From Lachnospiraceae bacterium (GTDB taxonomy: Bacteria; Bacillota; Clostridia; Lachnospirales; Lachnospiraceae): a stretch of 64,000 nucleotides of DNA. Below, one piece after another: positions 9,968-62,988 of this stretch. Positions within the stretch are counted from its first letter, which is position 1. The number at the start of each line of letters is the position of its first letter. The notes under the pieces are model-generated. The model saw nothing but the letters and a program-made list of their open reading frames with translations. It searched no databases and was not told where the DNA came from. The stretch spans positions 24,757 through 88,756 of the forward strand of contig JAAWEL010000089.1 of NCBI GenBank assembly GCA_022794255.1, written 5' to 3'. Position numbers and translations under genes: made by a program.

Positions 9968-10698
9968 TTATTGATTATCCTATTTTTAATGTAACGTCTG
10001 AAGCTTACTGGAAATAATTTTAAAAAGAACTGATAAATCTTTGTTGTTTTGATTCTTTTGATTTTCCAATATACCCAGTTGTGTTCTTTTCTTTTCAATT
10101 TTCTAAAATTTTTCACTTTTTCTATTTGAAGCGATTCTTCATCAGTGTCTATCTCATTATAAAAAGCGCCTATATTCTTTGCTGAATGTGCATCACTTCC
10201 AACCATTGTAACTAAATGATTATATTTTTTTAATATATCATCCATTTCCTTTGTATTGCCATATTTATAGTTTGCCTGTTCAATAAAACTTGCGTTTAAT
10301 AAAACATATTTGGCATCTATTTCTTTTATATTGGTATTGCCGATTACTCCAGTAGAGTGATTTGGATGGGGTACAATAATCACAGCATTTTCTTCTGACA
10401 AACGATCCACAAGCCTTCTTGCAGAATAACTTCCTCTTTCTTTCTCCAACTTCTTTATTTCATCCGATACTCCGATTATGTGGACGCCTTCAGAAGTTGT
10501 AAACTCAATTCCTTTCATTAATTGAATCTTATTCGATTCAAACATCCTTTCATCTTCTCTTGTTAAACCATAGACATCATGATCACATATAACAATTCCG
10601 TTAATTCCCTGCTTTTTACATTGATTAACAATTTTTCTTATTGGAAGTGATGAATCGATCGAATAGCATGTATGGCAATGTGACTCAACTCGTATCAT
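9964..10698 (-). CDS. PHP-domain metal-dependent phosphoesterase
   Basis: A 244-residue protein with N-terminal ESHCHTCYSIDSSLP (H-x-H motif) and GIVICDHDVYG, both metal-binding signatures of the PHP domain. VTMVGSDAHSAKNIG supplies the later D-A-H motif. PHP proteins hydrolyse phosphoesters, and in polysaccharide clusters some act as tyrosine phosphatases (CpsB/Wzb type) or sugar-phosphate phosphatases. It overlaps both neighbours by 4 bases. No Wzc-type tyrosine kinase is seen here, so a regulatory phosphatase role is uncertain. Confidence 0.78.
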   Translation of the reverse strand: MIRVESHCHTCYSIDSSLPIRKIVNQCKKQGINGIVICDHDVYGLTREDERMFESNKIQLMKGIEFTTSEGVHIIGVSDEIKKLEKERGSYSARRLVDRLSEENAVIIVPHPNHSTGVIGNTNIKEIDAKYVLLNASFIEQANYKYGNTKEMDDILKKYNHLVTMVGSDAHSAKNIGAFYNEIDTDEESLQIEKVKNFRKLKRKEHNWVYWKIKRIKTTKIYQFFLKLFPVSFRRYIKNRIINK

Positions 10699-11990
10699 TT
10701 TTCACACCTTACAAACGCAAGCTTTTTTCCTTCTCCGCTTCTTATAGCTTCTTTTCCATTGCTTATAAAAAACTCTATGTTTTTTGGCAATCGAGATACA
10801 AATTCCTCTTGCAGCTTGAATTTTATTTCATCATTGACTCGTCTTTCAATGATTAGTTCCACCCGGTCCATTCCATGTTGAACAATCTGCCAGGAGAACA
10901 CGGTTGGATAATGTTCCATTATTGTATAAAAATTAGTTAAAGGAATATTTCTGTCTTTTAATTTGATTGCCATATTGTTTCTTCCAATAACATTTTTTAT
11001 CGTCCTGAAAGAATGGCCGCAAGATATCTCATTACTTGCAATCTCTGCCAAATCATTGGTCTCATACCTTAACAGGGGCATCGCATAATTGTTCAAGTTG
11101 GTTCCCACAATTTTTTTTTGACTGGCATCACCGGTTTCTAAAAACTCCATATAACCATATTCTTCAAACACATGAAGCCCTTGATGCTTTCCACAATCTC
11201 CGGCAGCCACAATGCATTCAGCCATTCCATAATAATTTGAAATCTTTGCCTCAAAGGCACCCTCTATTTTCCGCCTTGTATCATCGCTTAACACCTCAGA
11301 AGCTGTAAATATGCCTTTGAGCTTTGGTATCTTATGACCACTTTTTGTGACATAATCAGCCAATAGTTCCAATGATGAAGGATATCCTCTGAGAAACTTA
11401 ACCTTATTTTTTATCATATGATTAAGATATTTTTCCATATTACTGTCCGTCATATCGTATGGACTATAATAGATAAAGTTTCTTATCTTATCATATTTAA
11501 TTATTTTTTTTGCCCGTTCGTTTTTAGGCGCATAGGAACGAACGATTGCCATTCTATCCCGAAAACGATAGCCAGCCCATTTCCATTGTCTCCAGACGGT
11601 GGCTTGCTCCATAATCCATTGTTGTTTTGATACCAATACCTCCAAAGGATTACCTGTAGAGCCGGATGTTTGTTGAATCAGCGCCTTTGTCTTATATTTA
11701 GGATTTATAAACTGGCTGTGATATTTTCTTACATCCTCTTTTCTTGTTAATGGAATTTTCTCAATATCTTTTAATTCTTTAAAATCCCGGTCCACGTCAA
11801 AATTTATTTTATGAAATAATTGTCTATAGTAGGGAATCTGGTTTTGACAAATTTTCAGCAATTTTTTTAATTTTCTTTTTTGATAATCCTCTATTTTTCC
11901 TCTTGAAAATTTGCATGATCTCATCAAAAAAAACTTACAATAAAAAATCCCTTCTGCTGACAGCATTAAATCTTTTATTTTATCAAACAC
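10695..11990 (-). CDS. PaaK/CapK-like adenylate-forming enzyme
   Basis: A 431-residue protein of the phenylacetate-CoA ligase-like family often called CapK in capsule loci. The ATP-binding motif is QQTSGSTGNPLE and the later ISNYYGMAEC corresponds to the adenylate-binding YG-x-x-E region. It may activate an organic acid for transfer to the glycan. The start is GTG at 11990, with GGAGG nine bases upstream. That ribosome site lies inside the 3' end of the full-length reading of the preceding acetyltransferase, so translation of this gene may depend on the acetyltransferase frame. Confidence 0.8.
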   Translation of the reverse strand: MFDKIKDLMLSAEGIFYCKFFLMRSCKFSRGKIEDYQKRKLKKLLKICQNQIPYYRQLFHKINFDVDRDFKELKDIEKIPLTRKEDVRKYHSQFINPKYKTKALIQQTSGSTGNPLEVLVSKQQWIMEQATVWRQWKWAGYRFRDRMAIVRSYAPKNERAKKIIKYDKIRNFIYYSPYDMTDSNMEKYLNHMIKNKVKFLRGYPSSLELLADYVTKSGHKIPKLKGIFTASEVLSDDTRRKIEGAFEAKISNYYGMAECIVAAGDCGKHQGLHVFEEYGYMEFLETGDASQKKIVGTNLNNYAMPLLRYETNDLAEIASNEISCGHSFRTIKNVIGRNNMAIKLKDRNIPLTNFYTIMEHYPTVFSWQIVQHGMDRVELIIERRVNDEIKFKLQEEFVSRLPKNIEFFISNGKEAIRSGEGKKLAFVRCEK

Positions 11991-11995
11991 CGTAT

Positions 11996-12485
11996 TTAGC
12001 CTCCATTTATCTCTGCTTCTGTTCTCATCCGTAATATCTTAGCTGGCACCCCCCCCCACGACTGCCCGGGCTGGTACATCCTTTATGACTACAGCATTTG
12101 CTCCTACAATTACATCATCACCAATTACGATCGGACCAAGAATTTTTGCTCCTGTTCCTACATGAACCCGGTCTCCAATAACTGGCACAATACTGCGAAT
12201 ACTGTCATATTCCGGAATTGCTTTATTGCTTTTTCCTGCCCCTCCTCCAATCGTAACATTGGTTCCAATCATACAGTCATTTCCAATTTTTGCTTCGCTG
12301 TGAATCACCAGACCAATCCCTTTATATCCGAATTCTGTTCCTCTTCCAATTGTACAAGTATATGGAACATACGAATTGTGAATGAAATAAATCCAGCTTC
12401 TGATAATCCAGGCAACCGGTTTCAAATGATGAAGATAGCACCATCGCTCTAATCTATATTTATTGATTGCACTCATTTTACTCAT
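11996..12485 (-). pseudogene. serine-acetyltransferase-like hexapeptide O-acetyltransferase, out of frame at a poly-G9 tract
   Basis: Left-handed beta-helix acetyltransferase of the CysE/WcaB type: IGNDCMIGTNVTIGGGAG, then IGDRVHVGTGAKILGPIVIGDDVIVGANAVV. The tracked ORF stops at 12039 with an abnormal end (VVGGGAS). Reading the nine G as eight restores the family ending VVGGVPAKILRMR and a stop at 11996, six bases before the next gene's start, with that gene's ribosome site overlapping the restored end. It would O-acetylate a sugar of the operon 1 glycan. It is either a slipped-strand ON/OFF gene, a fixed frameshift or an assembly error. Confidence 0.8.
12049..12057 (-). repeat. poly-G9 homopolymer in acetyltransferase gene
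   Basis: Nine consecutive C on the plus strand (G9 on the coding strand) in AT-rich surroundings. It sits at the 3' end of an acetyltransferase gene, and changing its length by one base (to G8) restores the conserved C-terminus. This is the classic arrangement of a slipped-strand contingency tract. Confidence 0.9.
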
Positions 12486-22171: not shown

Positions 22172-22750
22172 TTAATGCAACGCTATACCAGACATTTCCA
22201 CGGAAATCTCTGTATTTTCATACAGAAGCTTCCGCTCAGCATCCTCCTTCAGCATAATTCCTAACACAATCGCCTGATCCTCCCCCCATAATCTGTGGCG
22301 GATCATGGCATATCTCTTTTTAAATTGGTATTTTTCAATTTGTTCCCTGCAAATCCCCAAAGGCTCTGAAATCCTGCAAACCTGCCCCTGCTCATTCTTC
22401 AAAACATAGGAAAGTTTGACCATATGATCTTCCCCGGATATTTTTTTCAAAAATTCCCCGTCTTCTTTCATCATAGGAAGGATTGTCAGATTTTTGCAGG
22501 CAAGCAGATTTGCAATAGCTGGAATCTGTTCAAAACGTTTAATAAGAAAGCCCTGCTCTTCACAGGTAAGAAACACACATCCAGGAAACAAGGGTTCCAC
22601 ATGAACAACACTTCTCTGTTGTTTTCTCCATATCCGCTCCTGATAAATCACAAAACATTCATTATATAGAAAGGAAGGAACAGTTCTGGTAATCTCATTT
22701 ACCAGTTCTTTTTCTTTTCCCACCCATGTTTTTAACAAATACCACCGCAT
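22172..22750 (-). CDS. NusG-family antiterminator paralogue, NGN-KOW form (LoaP/UpxY type), operon 1
   Basis: A 192-residue protein with an NGN domain (MRWYLLKTWVGKEKELVNEI, VEPLFPGCVFLT, FEQIPAIANLL) and a KOW-like domain in the last third (ISEPLGICREQIEKYQFKK). This matches specialised NusG paralogues that ride with RNA polymerase through one long operon. It is the shorter of two paralogues at the head of operon 1 and pairs with the 188-residue protein at 50653-51219. Two NusG paralogues per operon is unusual. One might antiterminate and the other modulate it, but no evidence decides this. Confidence 0.82.
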   Translation of the reverse strand: MRWYLLKTWVGKEKELVNEITRTVPSFLYNECFVIYQERIWRKQQRSVVHVEPLFPGCVFLTCEEQGFLIKRFEQIPAIANLLACKNLTILPMMKEDGEFLKKISGEDHMVKLSYVLKNEQGQVCRISEPLGICREQIEKYQFKKRYAMIRHRLWGEDQAIVLGIMLKEDAERKLLYENTEISVEMSGIALH

Positions 22751-22835
22751 TGGATATTCCCTCCTCTCTTGTCTGCTGACTGTTCATCGATTATAGTCGG
22801 CACACGGATCCTTCCCTGCAGAAATAAGGAGGAAG

Positions 22836-23612
22836 TCAGCACCCACGTTTGCGCAAAATTTCCGCTGGTATCTCAATCGTCATATTTTGCCCCAAAAGGT
22901 ATACGCCGACTTTTACCATATGATTCTTCACCTCATAAACCACTCCGGGCATTCCTTCAAAGGCTCCGCTAATTACCACAACGGAATTTCCCGGAAAGAA
23001 TACGGGCAATCCTTTTTTTGCCTCCGGCTCCTCATGGATTCTATATTGCTCCGGCACCTGAATTGGTGCCTCCACCTTCCCGTAGCGCAGCTCCTGCCGA
23101 ATATCTTCATCCAGAACAATCCCCAGCAAAACAGTTTTCTCTTCTCCCAAAATCCTCAATCGTACAATCACGTGTCTTTTTCCAAATCGGCAACGGACAA
23201 TCCCGGTAACACAAGCCTTCAATGGTCCTGTTACCTGGCGAATATTTCCCTTTTCATCAGTTGACAAATAAGAAAGGCGGATCACATGATCATCACTCAT
23301 GATTCTTTTCAAAAATGCTTCTTCTTCCTTCTCAACAGTAAGGAAAAAAGATTCGTCATCTGCCATCATTTTTGACATGGCCGGAATCTGCTTCAAACAA
23401 AAAAACAGAGCCTCCGGCTCTTTGGATGTAATAAATACATATCCTGGAAATGCCCGCTTTACATGAACAAAATTTTTCTGCTGTCTTCGCCAAAGTTGCT
23501 CATGATAAACTACGAAACATTCTTCATACAAATAGGAGGGCACGATTTTTTGTATCAGACCTATCACCTTTTCTTCTTCACCAGTTCTTGTCTGAAGTAC
23601 ATACCATCGCAT
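22836..23612 (-). CDS. LoaP-like NusG paralogue with two KOW-like domains, operon 1 leader gene
   Basis: A 258-residue protein: NGN domain at about 1-110 (MRWYVLQTRTGEEEKVIGLI, VKRAFPGYVFITS), a first KOW-like domain at about 125-180 (VTGPLKACVTGIVRCRFGKR) and a second at about 205-255 (GNSVVVISGAFEGMPGVVYEV). NusG proper has only one KOW, so the extra one is notable. It is the first gene after the invertible cassette and the conserved leader, which is the position of UpxY in Bacteroides and LoaP in Firmicutes. It probably lets polymerase read the more than 23 kb of operon 1. Confidence 0.85.
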   Translation of the reverse strand: MRWYVLQTRTGEEEKVIGLIQKIVPSYLYEECFVVYHEQLWRRQQKNFVHVKRAFPGYVFITSKEPEALFFCLKQIPAMSKMMADDESFFLTVEKEEEAFLKRIMSDDHVIRLSYLSTDEKGNIRQVTGPLKACVTGIVRCRFGKRHVIVRLRILGEEKTVLLGIVLDEDIRQELRYGKVEAPIQVPEQYRIHEEPEAKKGLPVFFPGNSVVVISGAFEGMPGVVYEVKNHMVKVGVYLLGQNMTIEIPAEILRKRGC

Positions 23613-23826: not shown

Positions 23827-23895
23827 TAGCCATATGATTTTCATTCTCTTTTCAGATATAAAGCAAAGAAAACCCACGGCCCTGATCTTGTTCAA

Positions 23896-23935
23896 TGCAA
23901 CACAATTGGAAATTGTGTTGCACTGAGAGTTACTT
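23896..23935 (+). repeat. cassette 1 left inverted repeat
   Basis: A 40-bp repeat identical to the reverse complement of 24730-24769. Its core is palindromic, with arms CAACACAAT and ATTGTGTTG flanking the 5-bp spacer TGGAA. This is the expected build of a tyrosine-recombinase crossover site: two recombinase-binding arms and a strand-exchange spacer. Confidence 0.9.
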
Positions 23936-24015
23936 AAAATATTAGTAAATATCAGGAAATAATCTTGACAAGGTAGATACAGTCAAATAGCAAAAGAATA
24001 GGAAGATACCTCAAT

Positions 24016-24594
24016 ATGCAAAAAACACATCCTATCAAAGATGCAAAAGACATTCAAAAACTAAAGCAATATTATTTAGACAGACAGCAAATACGGAATT
24101 ATACTCTTATCACTCTTGGGATAAATACTTCACTGCGAATTGGAGATCTACTGCTTTTAAAATGGGAAAATGTTTATGATTTTTGTAATCGATGTTACTA
24201 CAAACATTTGAAAGTCTGTGAACAGAAAACAGGGAAGAATACCCTGATTGCCTTGAACAGAGAATCTTTGTTAGCTCTGAAAAGTTTGAAAGAATCTATA
24301 TCCCCTGTATTAGAAAAAGATTATTTATTTAAGAGCAGAGAAGGAATAAACCGCCCTATCTGCCGTACACAGGCATTCCGCATTATCAAAAAAGCGGCTG
24401 ATTCGCTTCATATCGAAGGAACCATCAGTTGCCATTCTCTCCGGAAAACCTTTGGCTATCATGCCTGGCGAAAGGGGGTTCCACCTGCTGTTATCATGAC
24501 TATTTACAATCATTCCTCTATGGAAGTCACGAAGCGTTACCTGTCCATCGACCAAGATGACAAAGATCAGGTCTTTTTGGAATTAAATCTGTAA
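24016..24594 (+). CDS. Fim-type tyrosine recombinase (DNA invertase) of cassette 1
   Basis: A 192-residue site-specific recombinase made of the catalytic domain only, the size of FimB/FimE/MrpI. All catalytic residues are visible: Arg41 (TSLRIGD), Lys71 (EQKTGK), His140 and Arg143 (CHSLRKTFGYHAW), His166 (YNHSS) and the nucleophile Tyr175 (KRYLSID). The gene lies inside the inverted repeats, so it flips with the cassette. A TTGACA at 23965-23970 may belong to its own promoter. It is similar along its whole length to the enzyme at 52293-52871. It should catalyse inversion between the 40-bp repeats. Confidence 0.92.
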   Translation: MQKTHPIKDAKDIQKLKQYYLDRQQIRNYTLITLGINTSLRIGDLLLLKWENVYDFCNRCYYKHLKVCEQKTGKNTLIALNRESLLALKSLKESISPVLEKDYLFKSREGINRPICRTQAFRIIKKAADSLHIEGTISCHSLRKTFGYHAWRKGVPPAVIMTIYNHSSMEVTKRYLSIDQDDKDQVFLELNL

Positions 24595-24653
24595 AGCAGC
24601 TGTCTGGCCTGAATGAACCATTACTCAGTAAAAAAATTCTTAAGAAAATTCCT

Positions 24654-24681
24654 CCTGTTTTTCCAGAAAATCTTAACCCTT
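24654..24681 (+). promoter_or_regulatory. 28-bp box upstream of the invertible promoter, identical in both cassettes
   Basis: This box reads CCTGTTTTTCCAGAAAATCT followed by TAACCCTT and is identical base for base to 52895-52922. It lies about 15 bases before the -35 element. The recombinase genes on one side have diverged, so perfect conservation here suggests a binding site for a shared activator, repressor or accessory factor. Confidence 0.6.
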
Positions 24682-24696
24682 TCACCAGAAAAGAAC

Positions 24697-24725
24697 TTGC
24701 ATTAAGAAGGAAAGAGTGCTATGAT
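24697..24725 (+). promoter_or_regulatory. outward sigma-A-type promoter of cassette 1
   Basis: The -35 TTGCAT (24697-24702) and -10 TATGAT (24720-24725) are separated by exactly 17 bases. Transcription would start about 7 bases later, at the edge of the right repeat. The same layout occurs in cassette 2. In this orientation it transcribes rightward, antisense to the 3' end of operon 2. Confidence 0.78.
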
Positions 24726-24729
24726 TACG

Positions 24730-24769
24730 AAGTAACTCTCAGTGCAACACAATTTCCAATTGTGTTGCA
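24730..24769 (-). repeat. cassette 1 right inverted repeat
   Basis: A perfect 40-bp inverted copy of 23896-23935, with spacer TTCCA on the plus strand (the complement of TGGAA). It lies 19 bases from the stop of the last operon 2 gene. Confidence 0.9.
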
Positions 24770-24788
24770 CTGAGCTAAGAATGAGTAA

Positions 24789-32013: not shown

Positions 32014-32705
32014 TTATTCGTCAATATATTTTTCTATCCCTTCAATCCAGACTGCATACCCATTCCCATTTAAATGAACACCATCTGTTGAATATAATTC
32101 TGTTATTATTGCACCATCTTCCTCAAATAAGTCATGTAAATCAATATATGTAACTGCCTCATATTCATTACAGATTTTCTGATAGCTTGCATTTAGCACT
32201 TCTACCTTTTCATCTGGAACATTTGCTGCCGGAAAAACACTTATTATATATATTTTGCAGTCCTTTCTACTTCCTGAAAGTATAGCGTCAATCGTTTTTT
32301 TCAGATATAACATTGTATCATCACCTGGTACATTCCGGCCCAGATCATTAATTCCTATATTAATAAATATTTTACCTGGATGATGGCTTAAGACTTCATT
32401 GATCCTGTGATAAATACCCTCTGCTGTATCTGATCCGATTCCACGGTTAATAACGGTTCCTTTATCCGGAAAAAATTCTTCAAATCTCCCGCCTAATGTA
32501 ATACTGTCGCCGACAAATGCTATTTCCGCATCTCCTATTTTACTGTTACTAAACATACTAACGTATGCATCATACTGGGGATTCATTGAATAATTATATT
32601 CCCCCCCCCACCCACTTCAACAATTTCTTTATTTTTATGGTGATCTAATAGCGAAAAAATTAAAAACAATAAGCTGATTTTAATAATCCAAGCACTCTTT
32701 TTCAA
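32014..32705 (-). pseudogene. SGNH/GDSL esterase whose N-terminal membrane anchor is out of frame at a poly-G9 tract
   Basis: The SGNH domain has block I FVGDSITLGG, block III INIGINDLG and block V DGVHLNGNGY. The tracked ORF starts at ATG 32586. Upstream, a frame beginning at TTG 32705 encodes a signal-anchor-like lead (KKSAWIIKISLLFLIFSLLD), runs into the G9 tract and, as sequenced, is one base out of frame with the esterase. G7 or G10 would fuse them into a 230-residue exported esterase. The domain itself is intact, so a cytoplasmic form may still be made. The TTG lies inside the end of the upstream gene. Confidence 0.65.
32601..32609 (-). repeat. poly-G9 homopolymer upstream of the SGNH domain
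   Basis: Nine consecutive C on the plus strand (G9 on the coding strand) between the anchor-like lead and the SGNH domain. Adding one G or removing two joins the two frames. It is the second G9 tract in the window and the same kind of arrangement as 12049-12057. Confidence 0.88.
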
Positions 32706-50652: not shown

Positions 50653-51219
50653 CTATCTGGGCACCTCCACCGAAACTTCCATATTCTCATACAAAAGTTT
50701 CTTCTCGGCATCCTCCTTTAGTATAATTCCCATTGCGATTGCCCTGTCTTCTCCCCACAGCCGGTGGCGAACCATAGCATATCTCTTTTTAAATTGATAA
50801 CGCTCAATCTGGCCCTCACAAGATCGCAGTGGGTCTGTCATTTTACAGATTTGACCCTGCTCATCTTTTAATACATAAGAAAGTCTTACCACATGATCTT
50901 CCCCAGATATCTTTTCCAGAAAATCCGCATCCTCCTTTATCATGGGAAGAATCGTCACATTTTTGCAATTTACCAGCCGGGACACAGCCGGGACTTGGCT
51001 AAGCCGTGTATACACAGATTCCGGATCTTTACAGGTAAGGAATGCACAGCCGGGAAATAATGATTCCATATGCACAATACTCCTTTGCTGCCTTCTCCAA
51101 ATCCGCTCCTGGTATATGACAAAACACTCTTCATACATATGAAGAGGAACGGTTCTGCGAATTTCCTCTACCAGGCCCTCTTCTTTTCCCACCCATGTTT
51201 TTATCAAACACCATAACAT
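50653..51219 (-). CDS. NusG-family antiterminator paralogue, NGN-KOW form, operon 2
   Basis: A 188-residue protein with an NGN domain (MLWCLIKTWVGKEEGLVEEI, MESLFPGCAFLTC) and a KOW-like C-terminal region (MTDPLRSCEGQIERYQFKK). It is the counterpart of the 192-residue protein of operon 1 and overlaps the upstream loaP-like gene by 16 bases. It probably helps RNA polymerase traverse the 27-kb operon 2, or modulates its partner. Confidence 0.82.
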   Translation of the reverse strand: MLWCLIKTWVGKEEGLVEEIRRTVPLHMYEECFVIYQERIWRRQQRSIVHMESLFPGCAFLTCKDPESVYTRLSQVPAVSRLVNCKNVTILPMIKEDADFLEKISGEDHVVRLSYVLKDEQGQICKMTDPLRSCEGQIERYQFKKRYAMVRHRLWGEDRAIAMGIILKEDAEKKLLYENMEVSVEVPR

Positions 51220-51947
51220 AGGCGTTTCTCCTTCCTTTCCGATATAGCATCAAGGCACTTTTCTTCTTTCCCCTGTATTGCATTCTGAATCTCTGATCCT
51301 TTATTTATTGGCCTTTGCCCTTTAGGCACGAGAATGGGCACACCAGATGGCTGTACATCCAGAGCCTTCCCTGGCTTATATTGCCCCGAAGCCAGAAACG
51401 GTGCTTCCACCTTTTCGTATTTCAATTCTTCACAAATATCTTCATGAAGCACAATCCCCAAAAGAACCGTCTTTTCCTCCTGATGCAGTTTAAATCTTAC
51501 CAGTACATACCGCTTTTTAAACCGACACTGCACAATCTGAGATACACATGCTTCCAATGGGCCCGAAACCTGGCGAATATTTCCTTTCCCGTCTGTTTCC
51601 ATATAAGAAAGGCGAATCACATAATCTTCATTCATGATCCTTCTCAAAAATTCCGCCTCTTCCGATTCCAGGGAAAGAAAAAAGAAATCCTCATCTGCTA
51701 TCATCCGAGACATAACCGGAACCTGTTTCAGGCAAAAGAACAGGGATTTGGGCTCCCTAGAAGTAATAAACACGTACCCAGGAAATGCCCGTCTTACATG
51801 AACAAAATTCTGCTGTTGCCTTCTCCATAGCAATTCCTGGTAGACTACAAAGCATTCCTCGTATAAATCATTTGAAACCATCTGGTGGATCAGATCTACC
51901 AGTTTCTCTTCTTCGCCGGTTCTCGTCTGCAGTACATACCATAGCAT
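51204..51947 (-). CDS. LoaP-like NusG paralogue with degenerate second KOW, operon 2 leader gene
   Basis: A 247-residue counterpart of 22836-23612. The NGN domain (MLWYVLQTRTGEEEKLVDLI, VRRAFPGYVFITS) and first KOW-like domain (VSGPLEACVSQIVQCRFKK) are kept. The region matching the second KOW is replaced by a lysine-rich, unlike tail. I moved the start from 52013 to ATG 51947: it matches the operon 1 protein start, has a GGAAGG site, and the longer version would translate the conserved leader block. Confidence 0.83.
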   Translation of the reverse strand: MLWYVLQTRTGEEEKLVDLIHQMVSNDLYEECFVVYQELLWRRQQQNFVHVRRAFPGYVFITSREPKSLFFCLKQVPVMSRMIADEDFFFLSLESEEAEFLRRIMNEDYVIRLSYMETDGKGNIRQVSGPLEACVSQIVQCRFKKRYVLVRFKLHQEEKTVLLGIVLHEDICEELKYEKVEAPFLASGQYKPGKALDVQPSGVPILVPKGQRPINKGSEIQNAIQGKEEKCLDAISERKEKRLCYGV

Positions 51948-51985
51948 ATCGAATCTTCCTTCCTCTGCTTCCAGGACAAAAAAGG

Positions 51986-52170
51986 GTAAGCTTCGCCATT
52001 TCCCGATTACCACGAAGCATCCAAAAAACGCTGCTCTGACACGTCTTTAAGATTAAACATAGTAACCCAGATAATTAAATGCGATGCAGCATCGCAGCTG
52101 GTATAACCCCTTTCCAGGAACCGCAGCCTCTAGACTCACGATTTCCCTTCCCGGTTTTTTACAAAATAAA
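51986..52170 (-). promoter_or_regulatory. conserved operon 2 leader (candidate structured antiterminator RNA)
   Basis: It carries the same blocks in the same order as the operon 1 leader: AACCGGGAAGGGAAA to GGAAAGGGGUUAUA (52103-52170), a hairpin with stem UGCGAUG/CAUCGCA (52080-52096), UCUGGGUUA (52063-52071) and UAAUCGGGAAAUGGCGAAGC (within 51986-52009). The hairpin stem shares no sequence with its operon 1 counterpart yet sits at the same place with a 3-4 base CUG-containing loop. Confidence 0.65.
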
Positions 52171-52175
52171 GGATC

Positions 52176-52216
52176 GAGTACAACACAATATGTAATTGTG
52201 TTGTACTTAAAATTAC
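52176..52216 (+). repeat. cassette 2 left inverted repeat
   Basis: A 41-bp repeat matching the reverse complement of 52973-53013 at 35 positions. Arms CAACACAAT and ATTGTGTTG surround the spacer ATGTA. The arms equal those of cassette 1, while the spacer differs. Confidence 0.82.
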
Positions 52217-52292
52217 ATATAAATTGAGTAAAATGCTGGTAATATAAGGATATGGCAGAGAATGCCAAATACGGGCACGGAGGTGCGTAAAT

Positions 52293-52871
52293 ATGCAAAA
52301 GACACAGCCAATCAGAAACACCAGGGATATTCTCAGACTGAAGCAATATTATCTGGACAGAAACCAGATACGCAATTATGCCCTGCTCACCTTGGGCATG
52401 AATACTTCCTTAAGAATCGGAGATCTGTTGCTCTTAAGGTGGGAAAATGTTTATGACTTTCACAGGAATTGCTATCACAAGCACTTAGAGGTTCTTGAAC
52501 AGAAAACAAGAAAGAATACCCGGATTGCCTTGAATAAAGAAGCGGTCTTATCTCTTCAGAATTTAAAAAATTCATTGGCTGTTGTATCTGGTGAGGATTA
52601 CCTTTTCCGGAGTCGTCAAGGCCAAAACCGTCCCATCAGCCGTTCACAGGCATTTCGCATCATAAAAAATGCTGCCAACAGTCTCCACATTACGGGAACC
52701 ATCAGCTGCCATTCCTTAAGAAAAACCTTCGGCTACCATGCGTGGAAAAATGGGATTCCTCCGGCCGTAATTATGGCAATTTACAATCACTCCTCTTTGG
52801 ATGTGACCAAACGCTACTTATCTATTGACCAGGATGACAAGGATAAAGTGTTTTTGGAGTTGAATCTATAA
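52293..52871 (+). CDS. Fim-type tyrosine recombinase (DNA invertase) of cassette 2
   Basis: A 192-residue catalytic-domain-only tyrosine recombinase, the same length as and aligning without gaps to the cassette 1 enzyme. Catalytic residues are all present: Arg41 (TSLRIGD), Lys71 (EQKTRK), His140/Arg143 (CHSLRKTFGYHAW), His166 (YNHSS), Tyr175 (KRYLSID). A GGAGGTG ribosome site precedes the ATG. The strongest differences from the paralogue lie in the middle (about residues 56-110), which may reflect site preference. Confidence 0.92.
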   Translation: MQKTQPIRNTRDILRLKQYYLDRNQIRNYALLTLGMNTSLRIGDLLLLRWENVYDFHRNCYHKHLEVLEQKTRKNTRIALNKEAVLSLQNLKNSLAVVSGEDYLFRSRQGQNRPISRSQAFRIIKNAANSLHITGTISCHSLRKTFGYHAWKNGIPPAVIMAIYNHSSLDVTKRYLSIDQDDKDKVFLELNL

Positions 52872-52894
52872 AATAATTTCTTAAGAATTTTAAA

Positions 52895-52922
52895 CCTGTT
52901 TTTCCAGAAAATCTTAACCCTT
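52895..52922 (+). promoter_or_regulatory. 28-bp conserved box upstream of cassette 2 promoter
   Basis: Identical over 28 bases to 24654-24681 and in the same place relative to the -35 element. It contains the imperfect palindrome TTTTTCCAGAAAA. Confidence 0.6.
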
Positions 52923-52937
52923 CCATCAGAAAAAAAC

Positions 52938-52966
52938 TTGCAATATAAATAAAAGAGTGCTATGAT
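52938..52966 (+). promoter_or_regulatory. outward sigma-A-type promoter of cassette 2
   Basis: The -35 TTGCAA (52938-52943), 17-base spacer and -10 TATGAT (52961-52966) are followed by TACGAAGTAACT, as in cassette 1. It would start transcription at the edge of the right repeat. Here it fires rightward, antisense to the DUF805 gene. Confidence 0.78.
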
Positions 52967-52972
52967 TACGAA

Positions 52973-53013
52973 GTAACTTTGAGTGCAACATAATTACATA
53001 TTGTGTTACACTC
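52973..53013 (-). repeat. cassette 2 right inverted repeat
   Basis: It pairs with 52176-52216 with six mismatches. Its arms are themselves altered (CAACATAAT and ATTGTGTTA), so the recombinase-binding palindrome is imperfect. The spacer TACAT is the exact complement of the left spacer. Confidence 0.8.
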
Positions 53014-61211: not shown

Positions 61212-62045
61212 CTACTTGCCTGTTAATTGCTTAAACAGAACATTGCCTAACATACTAAGAGATGTCTGCGCAATATCAAGCATAATATTTATCATATCAT
61301 TGTTTTTCCAATGACTTCCATCACCTTGCGTATAAATTGAAGCTGCTTGCAACATTATTGTCCGACTATTACAAAGAACAAACTTGTTTTTACACAGATT
61401 GGTATTTACTTTCATGCCATAATTTGCGGCAGTAAGTCGATCAAGCCTGTTCAGAGTACCATTATCATAATGCAATGTATAATCGCTACCATCAGGTCTT
61501 TGTATCGTAATATCATGCGTCAAAAAGTTGGAACCTTCTAAAAACAGAATATATGGGAAATAAGGTTCTGACAACATATAGTTAGCAATTTCACAAACAT
61601 TCTTGTGTGCACGTTCAATGGCATTTCCCGCTGCCATTAAATCTTGATTGTTATTTTTCCCGACTTTGATACCAGCCTTTAGATTATCAATATCCTTGCC
61701 CTGAAACTTTGCTTCTGAAACAAGTACAACGTGCCATTTTCCGTTGTCGTCCTTAACTTCAATAATTCCGCCATCTGGAATAATGCTTGCACTTTGTAAG
61801 AATAAAGTCTGTCCAAGCTCATCATCAATTTCATGCAACGCCTCGTTTATCTCTTTCTTTGAAATGCTTTTCCTATATCTAAAGGTCAATGTTTGAAATT
61901 TCTCTTGCAACTTATGTACTACGATTTTGGAATTATCAGAAACTTTCCTGTCATGTACCTGCGCTTCTTCATCAAAAATTCCAATGACACCATCTGCCGC
62001 CTTTTGCTGTGTCGTCAGCCTGTCAGATTGCTGTTTCCCTTTCAT
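61212..62045 (-). CDS. EcoRI/RsrI-type type II restriction endonuclease (predicted GAATTC)
   Basis: A 277-residue protein, the same length as EcoRI and similar throughout. The catalytic residues align at identical positions: Asp91 (PDGG), Glu111 and Lys113 (SEAK). Base-contact residues are kept as well: Asn141 and Arg145 in GNAIERAHKN, and Arg200 and Arg203 in LNRLDRLTAANYGM. It should cut GAATTC unless methylated. It overlaps the methyltransferase gene by 23 bases with its own GGAG site, so methylase is made first. Confidence 0.93.
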   Translation of the reverse strand: MKGKQQSDRLTTQQKAADGVIGIFDEEAQVHDRKVSDNSKIVVHKLQEKFQTLTFRYRKSISKKEINEALHEIDDELGQTLFLQSASIIPDGGIIEVKDDNGKWHVVLVSEAKFQGKDIDNLKAGIKVGKNNNQDLMAAGNAIERAHKNVCEIANYMLSEPYFPYILFLEGSNFLTHDITIQRPDGSDYTLHYDNGTLNRLDRLTAANYGMKVNTNLCKNKFVLCNSRTIMLQAASIYTQGDGSHWKNNDMINIMLDIAQTSLSMLGNVLFKQLTGK

Positions 62046-62988
62046 CTTGTTGTTCTCCTTTTAAATTTGTAAAAAATTCTTCCACATTGTCTATCTGAAT
62101 ATAGTCCGTATTTTGTCCCAGTTCCCTCATAAGTTCAAGGTGCTTGTTAAAAAAATCAATAGAGGAATCATTACTATCACACATCAAGCAATGCCGTCCC
62201 CCTGAAACACAAACACGTCCGACTGTTCCGCTTCCTGCAAAAAAATCAAGCACAACTGAACCCGGATATGAAAGTGCTTGAACAAAACGATCAATAATTG
62301 CAACAGGTTTTTGTGTTGGGTGTCCAACACGTTCCTTGCTATTACCATTAAGCCTATTGATTTCCCATACATTTGTTGGGTTTTTTCCCTTTATTGTATT
62401 TTGGGGATTTAGGCGTTTATCTTTCAATGCCGCTTCAAGGTCTTTTTCTGAATAAGGTTCTCTTACTGAATCTAAATCAAAATAATAGTCATTTGTTTTT
62501 GTCAACCAAATAACTTCTTCATGCCTGTTCGCAAAATACCTATGAGCAGACATACCGTTTTTATAACGCCAAATAATCGTATTTATCAACTTGAATTTCG
62601 TATTATGTCTAATGTGATGAATTATATCAATCAAGTCACCCGATTTAACATCTCTAAATTGTATCCCACCAAAAATGACCATACTGCCATTTTTTGAAAG
62701 AACTCTGTATGCCTCATCAAGCCATTTTGCAGCCCATTCAATATAATTATCATAAATATCCCACCCAGCAAGTTCAAGATTATAGGGCGGATCAATGCAA
62801 ATTAACTGTACTGATTCATCAGGGATTACTTTCAAAAAATCTAAACAATCCATAATGTTCAAGCAAAGCATAGTTTTATCAGGTGCTGTAAAATCTGCTG
62901 CTGTCTTATGCTTTAACGTATTATCCTTACGCATTTTGTTCAAAGACATAAGCGCGTGATTATTATGCGATTTATTATGAATAGCCAT
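62023..62988 (-). CDS. beta-class adenine-N6 DNA methyltransferase, M.RsrI-like
   Basis: A 321-residue amino-methyltransferase. Motif IV is CIDPPYNLELAGWD near the N-terminus and motif I is LDFFAGSGTVGR near the C-terminus, the order of the beta class. LNGNSKERVGHPTQKP is shared with M.RsrI, as is NRHEEVIW. It should methylate the inner A of GAATTC and protect the host from the neighbouring nuclease. M.EcoRI is of a different type, so this pair resembles the RsrI system. GAGGTG precedes the start. Confidence 0.92.
   Translation of the reverse strand: MAIHNKSHNNHALMSLNKMRKDNTLKHKTAADFTAPDKTMLCLNIMDCLDFLKVIPDESVQLICIDPPYNLELAGWDIYDNYIEWAAKWLDEAYRVLSKNGSMVIFGGIQFRDVKSGDLIDIIHHIRHNTKFKLINTIIWRYKNGMSAHRYFANRHEEVIWLTKTNDYYFDLDSVREPYSEKDLEAALKDKRLNPQNTIKGKNPTNVWEINRLNGNSKERVGHPTQKPVAIIDRFVQALSYPGSVVLDFFAGSGTVGRVCVSGGRHCLMCDSNDSSIDFFNKHLELMRELGQNTDYIQIDNVEEFFTNLKGEQQDERETAI

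Follow-up and report, generated by a model that had tools for sequence, protein, structure and literature searches.

The acetyltransferase gene and its poly-G tract

The 64-kb stretch of DNA analysed here, referred to as the window, corresponds to C63:24757-88756 of an assembly of 3.42 Mb in 90 contigs that is 87% complete, and includes two capsule operons. Within operon 1, a minus-strand gene (12039-12485) is read as an ORF of 148 amino acids with the hexapeptide repeats of a left-handed beta-helix (LbH) acetyltransferase (Pfam Hexapep, PF00132, 7.1e-15). Its coding strand carries a run of nine G residues (G9) at 12049-12057, in codons 144-146. The minus-strand letters at the end of the gene, ...GCA GTC GTG GGG GGG GGT GCC AGC TAA, give the C-terminus ...RAVVGGGAS and a TAA stop at 12041-12039. 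A sequence-only reading of the window had the acetyltransferase end after VVGGG at this tract, and all of its coordinates proved right. The tract is in frame when its length n equals 2 mod 3, which gives VVGGVPAKILRMRTEAEINGG with a TAA stop at 11998-11996; at G8 or G11 the reading frame accordingly runs on as VVGGVPAKILRMR and ends 5 nt ahead of the next gene. At G9 the segment at 11996-12048 (minus strand), encoding VPAKILRMRTEAEINGG up to the stop at 11998-11996, is out of frame. Homologues of the protein end V-x-G-x-PA(K/R), which identifies the in-frame tail as the normal C-terminal tail of the acetyltransferase. The homologues have one glycine in this motif, whereas the in-frame protein has two, and the tract therefore appears to have grown from fewer G residues. 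Downstream of the tract lie only 16 codons of the gene, too few for their intactness to say much. All hexapeptide repeats are kept in the 148-amino-acid product, which may have some enzyme activity left.

The solved chains closest to the protein are serine acetyltransferases. As an equivalog of the serine acetyltransferases CysE or EpsC it scores below the NCBIfam cut-offs (89 bits against 150 for EpsC and 79 against 211 for cysE). The label "O-acetyltransferase" given in the sequence-only reading is a family-level attribution, and a role in acetylating the polysaccharide is predicted from the family and the operon context.

The next gene (10695-11990, minus strand) encodes an AMP-binding CapK/PaaK-like protein of 431 amino acids with a GTG start at 11990. 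Its GGAGG ribosome site (12000-12004, minus strand) overlaps the last in-frame codons of the acetyltransferase, and G8 does restore the frame up to a stop at 11996 beside this GTG, as had been proposed. As read, the distance from the end of acetyltransferase translation to the CapK/PaaK-like start is 48 nt, against the 5 nt of the in-frame gene. A polar effect of the out-of-frame state on the CapK-like gene is possible but unsupported; RNA folding of the junction is weak, with no stable structure and no sign of a blocked start.

Both capsule operons are headed by a pair of LoaP-like antiterminator genes on the minus strand, at 22172-23612 for operon 1 and at 50653-52013 for operon 2. Ahead of operon 1 lies a probable invertible segment (23892-24773) bounded by 44-bp inverted repeats of 98% identity (23892-23935 and 24730-24773), with a plus-strand tyrosine recombinase gene inside it (24016-24594). 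In a second probable invertible segment (52176-53013), inverted repeats of 41 bp (85%) enclose another tyrosine recombinase gene, at 52293-52871. From this arrangement, inversion of the segments ahead of both operons is probable. At 61212-62988 of the window, an EcoRI endonuclease-like protein was noted by eye beside an adenine methyltransferase-like gene.

Excess, clustering and gene context of G9 tracts

Within the window alone the tract does not exceed chance: four overlapping G8 matches were found against 1.47 expected, and 13 of 100 shuffles reach that count. Window-only shuffles being unconvincing, genome-wide tests were required. The whole assembly contains 16 tracts of exactly G9 and five of exactly G8, and 11 of the 16 G9 tracts lie on three surface-glycan contigs (C35, C52 and C63) that make up 5% of the assembly (p about 3e-11). 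In the read parts of these contigs, runs of G or C number 408 of length 4, 73 of 5, 20 of 6, 1 of 7, 2 of 8 and 11 of 9; they drop at about 0.2 per base to length 6, are nearly absent at 7 and return at 9, so that 11 runs of nine or more are seen where 0.18 are expected. By both run spectrum and clustering, poly-G in this genome is longer than chance allows.

The window holds a second G9 tract (32601-32609, minus strand), which is out of frame as read and lies at the 5' end of a gene for a GDSL/SGNH hydrolase; the hydrolase behind it, a possible esterase, occupies 32014-32586 on the same strand. Across C35, C52 and C63 there are 13 such tracts (11 G9 and two G8), and 13 of 13 have the G residues on the coding strand inside genes of glycan loci. 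The genes comprise three LbH acetyltransferases, two members of acyltransferase family 3, one AlgX-like esterase, one GDSL esterase, one family-2 glycosyltransferase, a GtrII-like gene, a DUF6056 gene, a FemA-like gene (read by eye, with no Pfam match) and two membrane proteins, likewise with no Pfam match. The neighbourhood on C35 is capsule-type, with a sugar transferase, LicD, Wzy and an aminotransferase. The tracts are thus biased to genes for surface structures. As recorded, four of the 13 are in frame and nine are out of frame, and the nine out-of-frame glycan genes keep open downstream frames of up to 447 codons. General homopolymer sequencing error was rejected as their source, since 34 of the 39 A/T runs of 8-9 on these contigs lie in unbroken ORFs (Fisher p = 2.5e-4 against the G tracts). 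Nor are the tracts tied to one gene family: of nine loci with DUF6056 homologues, only two, those of this genome and of relative G005, clearly have the tract within the gene.

Elsewhere in this genome, a fourteenth intragenic tract, a G9 that is out of frame as read, lies between the receiver and LytTR domains of a response regulator (C64:112846; L013), and another G9 occupies the ribosome-site position 11 nt before the ATG of a DctM-type transporter gene (C5:10549; L001). At C35:3144-4220 (G000; L040) a glycosyltransferase-2 copy without its N-terminus is followed by a copy without its C-terminus that holds a G9, an arrangement that looks recombined.

Poly-G tracts in related genomes

Runs of G9 or more were found in 24 of 24 genomes of the genus (this one and 23 relatives), and several relatives have clustered tracts of up to G14 (G8-G14 in the relatives). 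The 56 coding-strand intragenic tracts sampled from these relatives again fall in glycan-type families, including hexapeptide transferases, glycosyltransferases, acyltransferases, methyltransferases and capsule synthesis genes. Twelve of the 31 strictly called tracts of the relatives are in frame, and 16 of 44 when this genome is added, matching the one third predicted for lengths that are independent of frame. In one relative (G009), two copies of an IS200-like transposase gene each carry an out-of-frame G9 (L051, L053). The G29-G30 runs on C21 of G010 adjoin Ns and were excluded as an assembly gap.

The acetyltransferase gene itself has only two homologues in the genus (E below 1e-15). One carries a G9 in its N-terminal third, in frame, and the other a G10 near codon 12, out of frame. 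No ortholog of the acetyltransferase tract position was found among the genomes compared, and the closest homologue from another genus has no G run of eight or more. Homologue searches of the contig database gave distant relatives only, those of plasmids no match and those of viruses one weak locus. A tract at three different positions of one gene in three species suggests repeated gain.

A change of length in an orthologous tract is seen in a flagellin leader, where the flanks of the tract are conserved (CCGGACC-Gn-TAGAACAAG) and n is 9, 9, 6, 11 and 7 in five copies from four species (L125, this genome, C64:129579-129603; L123, L124, L126, L127). In this genome (L016:1450-1520; C90:23893) and in three relatives (L078, L081, L122), an HlyD-like exporter gene is preceded by a G9-G10 tract that separates TTGACA from TAAAAT (spacer 14-15); with a -35-like hexamer on one side and a -10-like hexamer on the other, this resembles phase variation of a promoter spacer. 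The tracts lie where one base alters either a reading frame or a promoter spacing.

Recorded tract length and alternative explanations

The call that the acetyltransferase is presently OFF is a provisional one: the long tracts of this genome are without exception recorded as G9, and the assembly may have dropped or shortened any of 10 or more. The contingency nature of the gene does not depend on this call. The tracts could be true contingency tracts whose recorded length is wrong, the assembly having shortened or misjudged G runs, with the acetyltransferase in frame (G8 or G11) in most cells. In favour of this, not one of the 16 long tracts departs from G9, in contrast to those of the relatives (P = 1.5e-7 from the genus spectrum), and nine of the ten out-of-frame intragenic tracts (nine on the glycan contigs and one in the LytTR gene) are one G short, where the relatives divide nine against ten. 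Runs of A10 or more and T10 or more are also absent from this genome. Against this, A10+ runs are likewise absent from several relatives, A/T runs here are undamaged, the G8 tracts of C35 are recorded as such, which makes it probable that a genuine G8 would have shown up too, and in Campylobacter tracts are kept mainly at G9-G10 through mutational bias (PMC8355987). The uniform length may thus reflect either biology or an assembly limit, and a misrecorded length at the acetyltransferase is judged unlikely, though it deserves serious consideration.

Far less credible is slippage at the G run during transcription or on the ribosome, by which DNA of a single, fixed length would yield the short and the full-length protein side by side. 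A long G run could slip in transcription as well, as an addition, but the length of the orthologous flagellin-leader tract differs between species, some tracts are extragenic (including the one that separates a -35-like from a -10-like hexamer) and would gain nothing from a shift of frame, and the in-frame fraction of about one third is that of random DNA lengths. A plain recent frameshift, in which a G run that arose by chance where Gly-Gly is encoded took on one more G in a gene turning pseudogene, would suit a site encoding Gly-Gly-Val, convertible to G8 by GGG codons, in a window by itself within chance, but is scarcely tenable given the genome-wide excess, the clustering, the gene classes of the tracts and the undamaged downstream halves of nine out-of-frame genes.

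Slipped-strand phase variation of the acetyltransferase is very probable on these comparisons, the gene being one of a set that this group of bacteria very likely switches on and off by single-G changes. The earlier suggestion that it is a contingency gene is strongly supported by the genome and genus data, namely the excess and clustering of G9, the placement on the coding strand, the near-random frame, the intact downstream halves, the different sites in homologues and the length difference between species.

A candidate mechanism for glycan diversification

In the proposed mechanism, the G tract would gain or lose single G residues in replication by slipped-strand mispairing, and its length n would set the frame, such that at n = 2 mod 3 the ribosome would reach the VPAK tail and at other lengths the tail would be lost, presumably with impaired enzyme function. 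With 13 tracts in acyltransferase, esterase, glycosyltransferase and related genes, switching in individual cells could give each its own combination of glycan decorations, among which O-acetylation of the polysaccharide would be the predicted contribution of the acetyltransferase. Two layers of control may be superimposed, the invertible segments and LoaP-like antiterminators choosing whole operons and poly-G adjusting fine decoration. MutS was found in this genome and in 22 of the 23 relatives, and lost mismatch repair was accordingly rejected as a cause; switching would not depend on it. The mutational bias described in Campylobacter, where opposite tendencies at short and long lengths hold tracts near G9-G10 (PMC8355987), fits the peak at nine seen here.

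The broader interpretation, favoured with some reserve, is that a genus still encoding MutS, probably of the Lachnospiraceae to judge by gene content, has a poly-G phasome on the scale of Campylobacter. Homologous surface-decoration genes would have acquired their tracts independently and at different places, with further tracts arising in promoter spacers and in a flagellin leader, and the phasome may form a two-layer capsule randomiser together with the invertible segments and LoaP antiterminators. If poly-G slippage does switch capsule decorations in Clostridia as well, a single clone would be a mixture of surface types, which would matter for strain typing, for resistance to phages and for recognition by the immune system, and the genes carrying tracts would be called broken by automatic annotation.

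Relation to known phase-variable systems

The poly-G phasome of Campylobacter (PMC6321876, PMC8355987) resembles the present one in its many intragenic and some intergenic tracts, its modal length of G9-G10 and its surface glycan and flagella genes. It differs in belonging to a Gram-negative of another phylum, whereas MutS, probable invertible segments and LoaP-like antiterminators are present here. In Neisseria, pilin O-glycosylation involves glycosyltransferase and acetylase genes with G tracts (described in PMC9187656). There, as is proposed here, an intragenic G tract switches a gene for acetylation and thereby alters a surface glycan, although the glycan in Neisseria is a protein glycan and the locus here is capsule-type. 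The Neisseria acetylase gene probably belongs to a gene family other than that of the acetyltransferase in the window. Among Gram-positive gut commensals, Bifidobacterium breve has an intragenic G tract in its pilus genes, at which replication slippage has been measured and mixed lengths occur within one culture (PMC9187656); those tracts lie in sortase-dependent pilins at operon starts in two loci, whereas the ones described here are mostly in glycan genes and at many loci. Promoter inversion in Clostridioides difficile and Bacteroides (PMC2784873, PMC9286219, PMC8375218) likewise places invertible DNA, here probable, before surface or capsule operons, but acts by site-specific inversion with no slippage, whereas both processes appear to act on the same operon here.

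Contingency genes with G tracts are well known in Campylobacter and Neisseria. A search of the open full-text literature (subscription papers lying outside its scope) turned up no description of poly-G switching for Lachnospiraceae or Clostridia, and the published phase variation that it did find in Clostridia is by DNA inversion. The mechanism is already known, the host group appears new within the literature searched, and the breadth is unusual. Among 200 genomes of the family, the typical number of tracts of G9 or more is about one, against 16 in this genome, and a few other genera have more; poly-G phasomes may have several independent origins in the family. Genomes G045, G072, G113, G187 and G167, all of other genera, have 20-33 tracts of G9 or more each.
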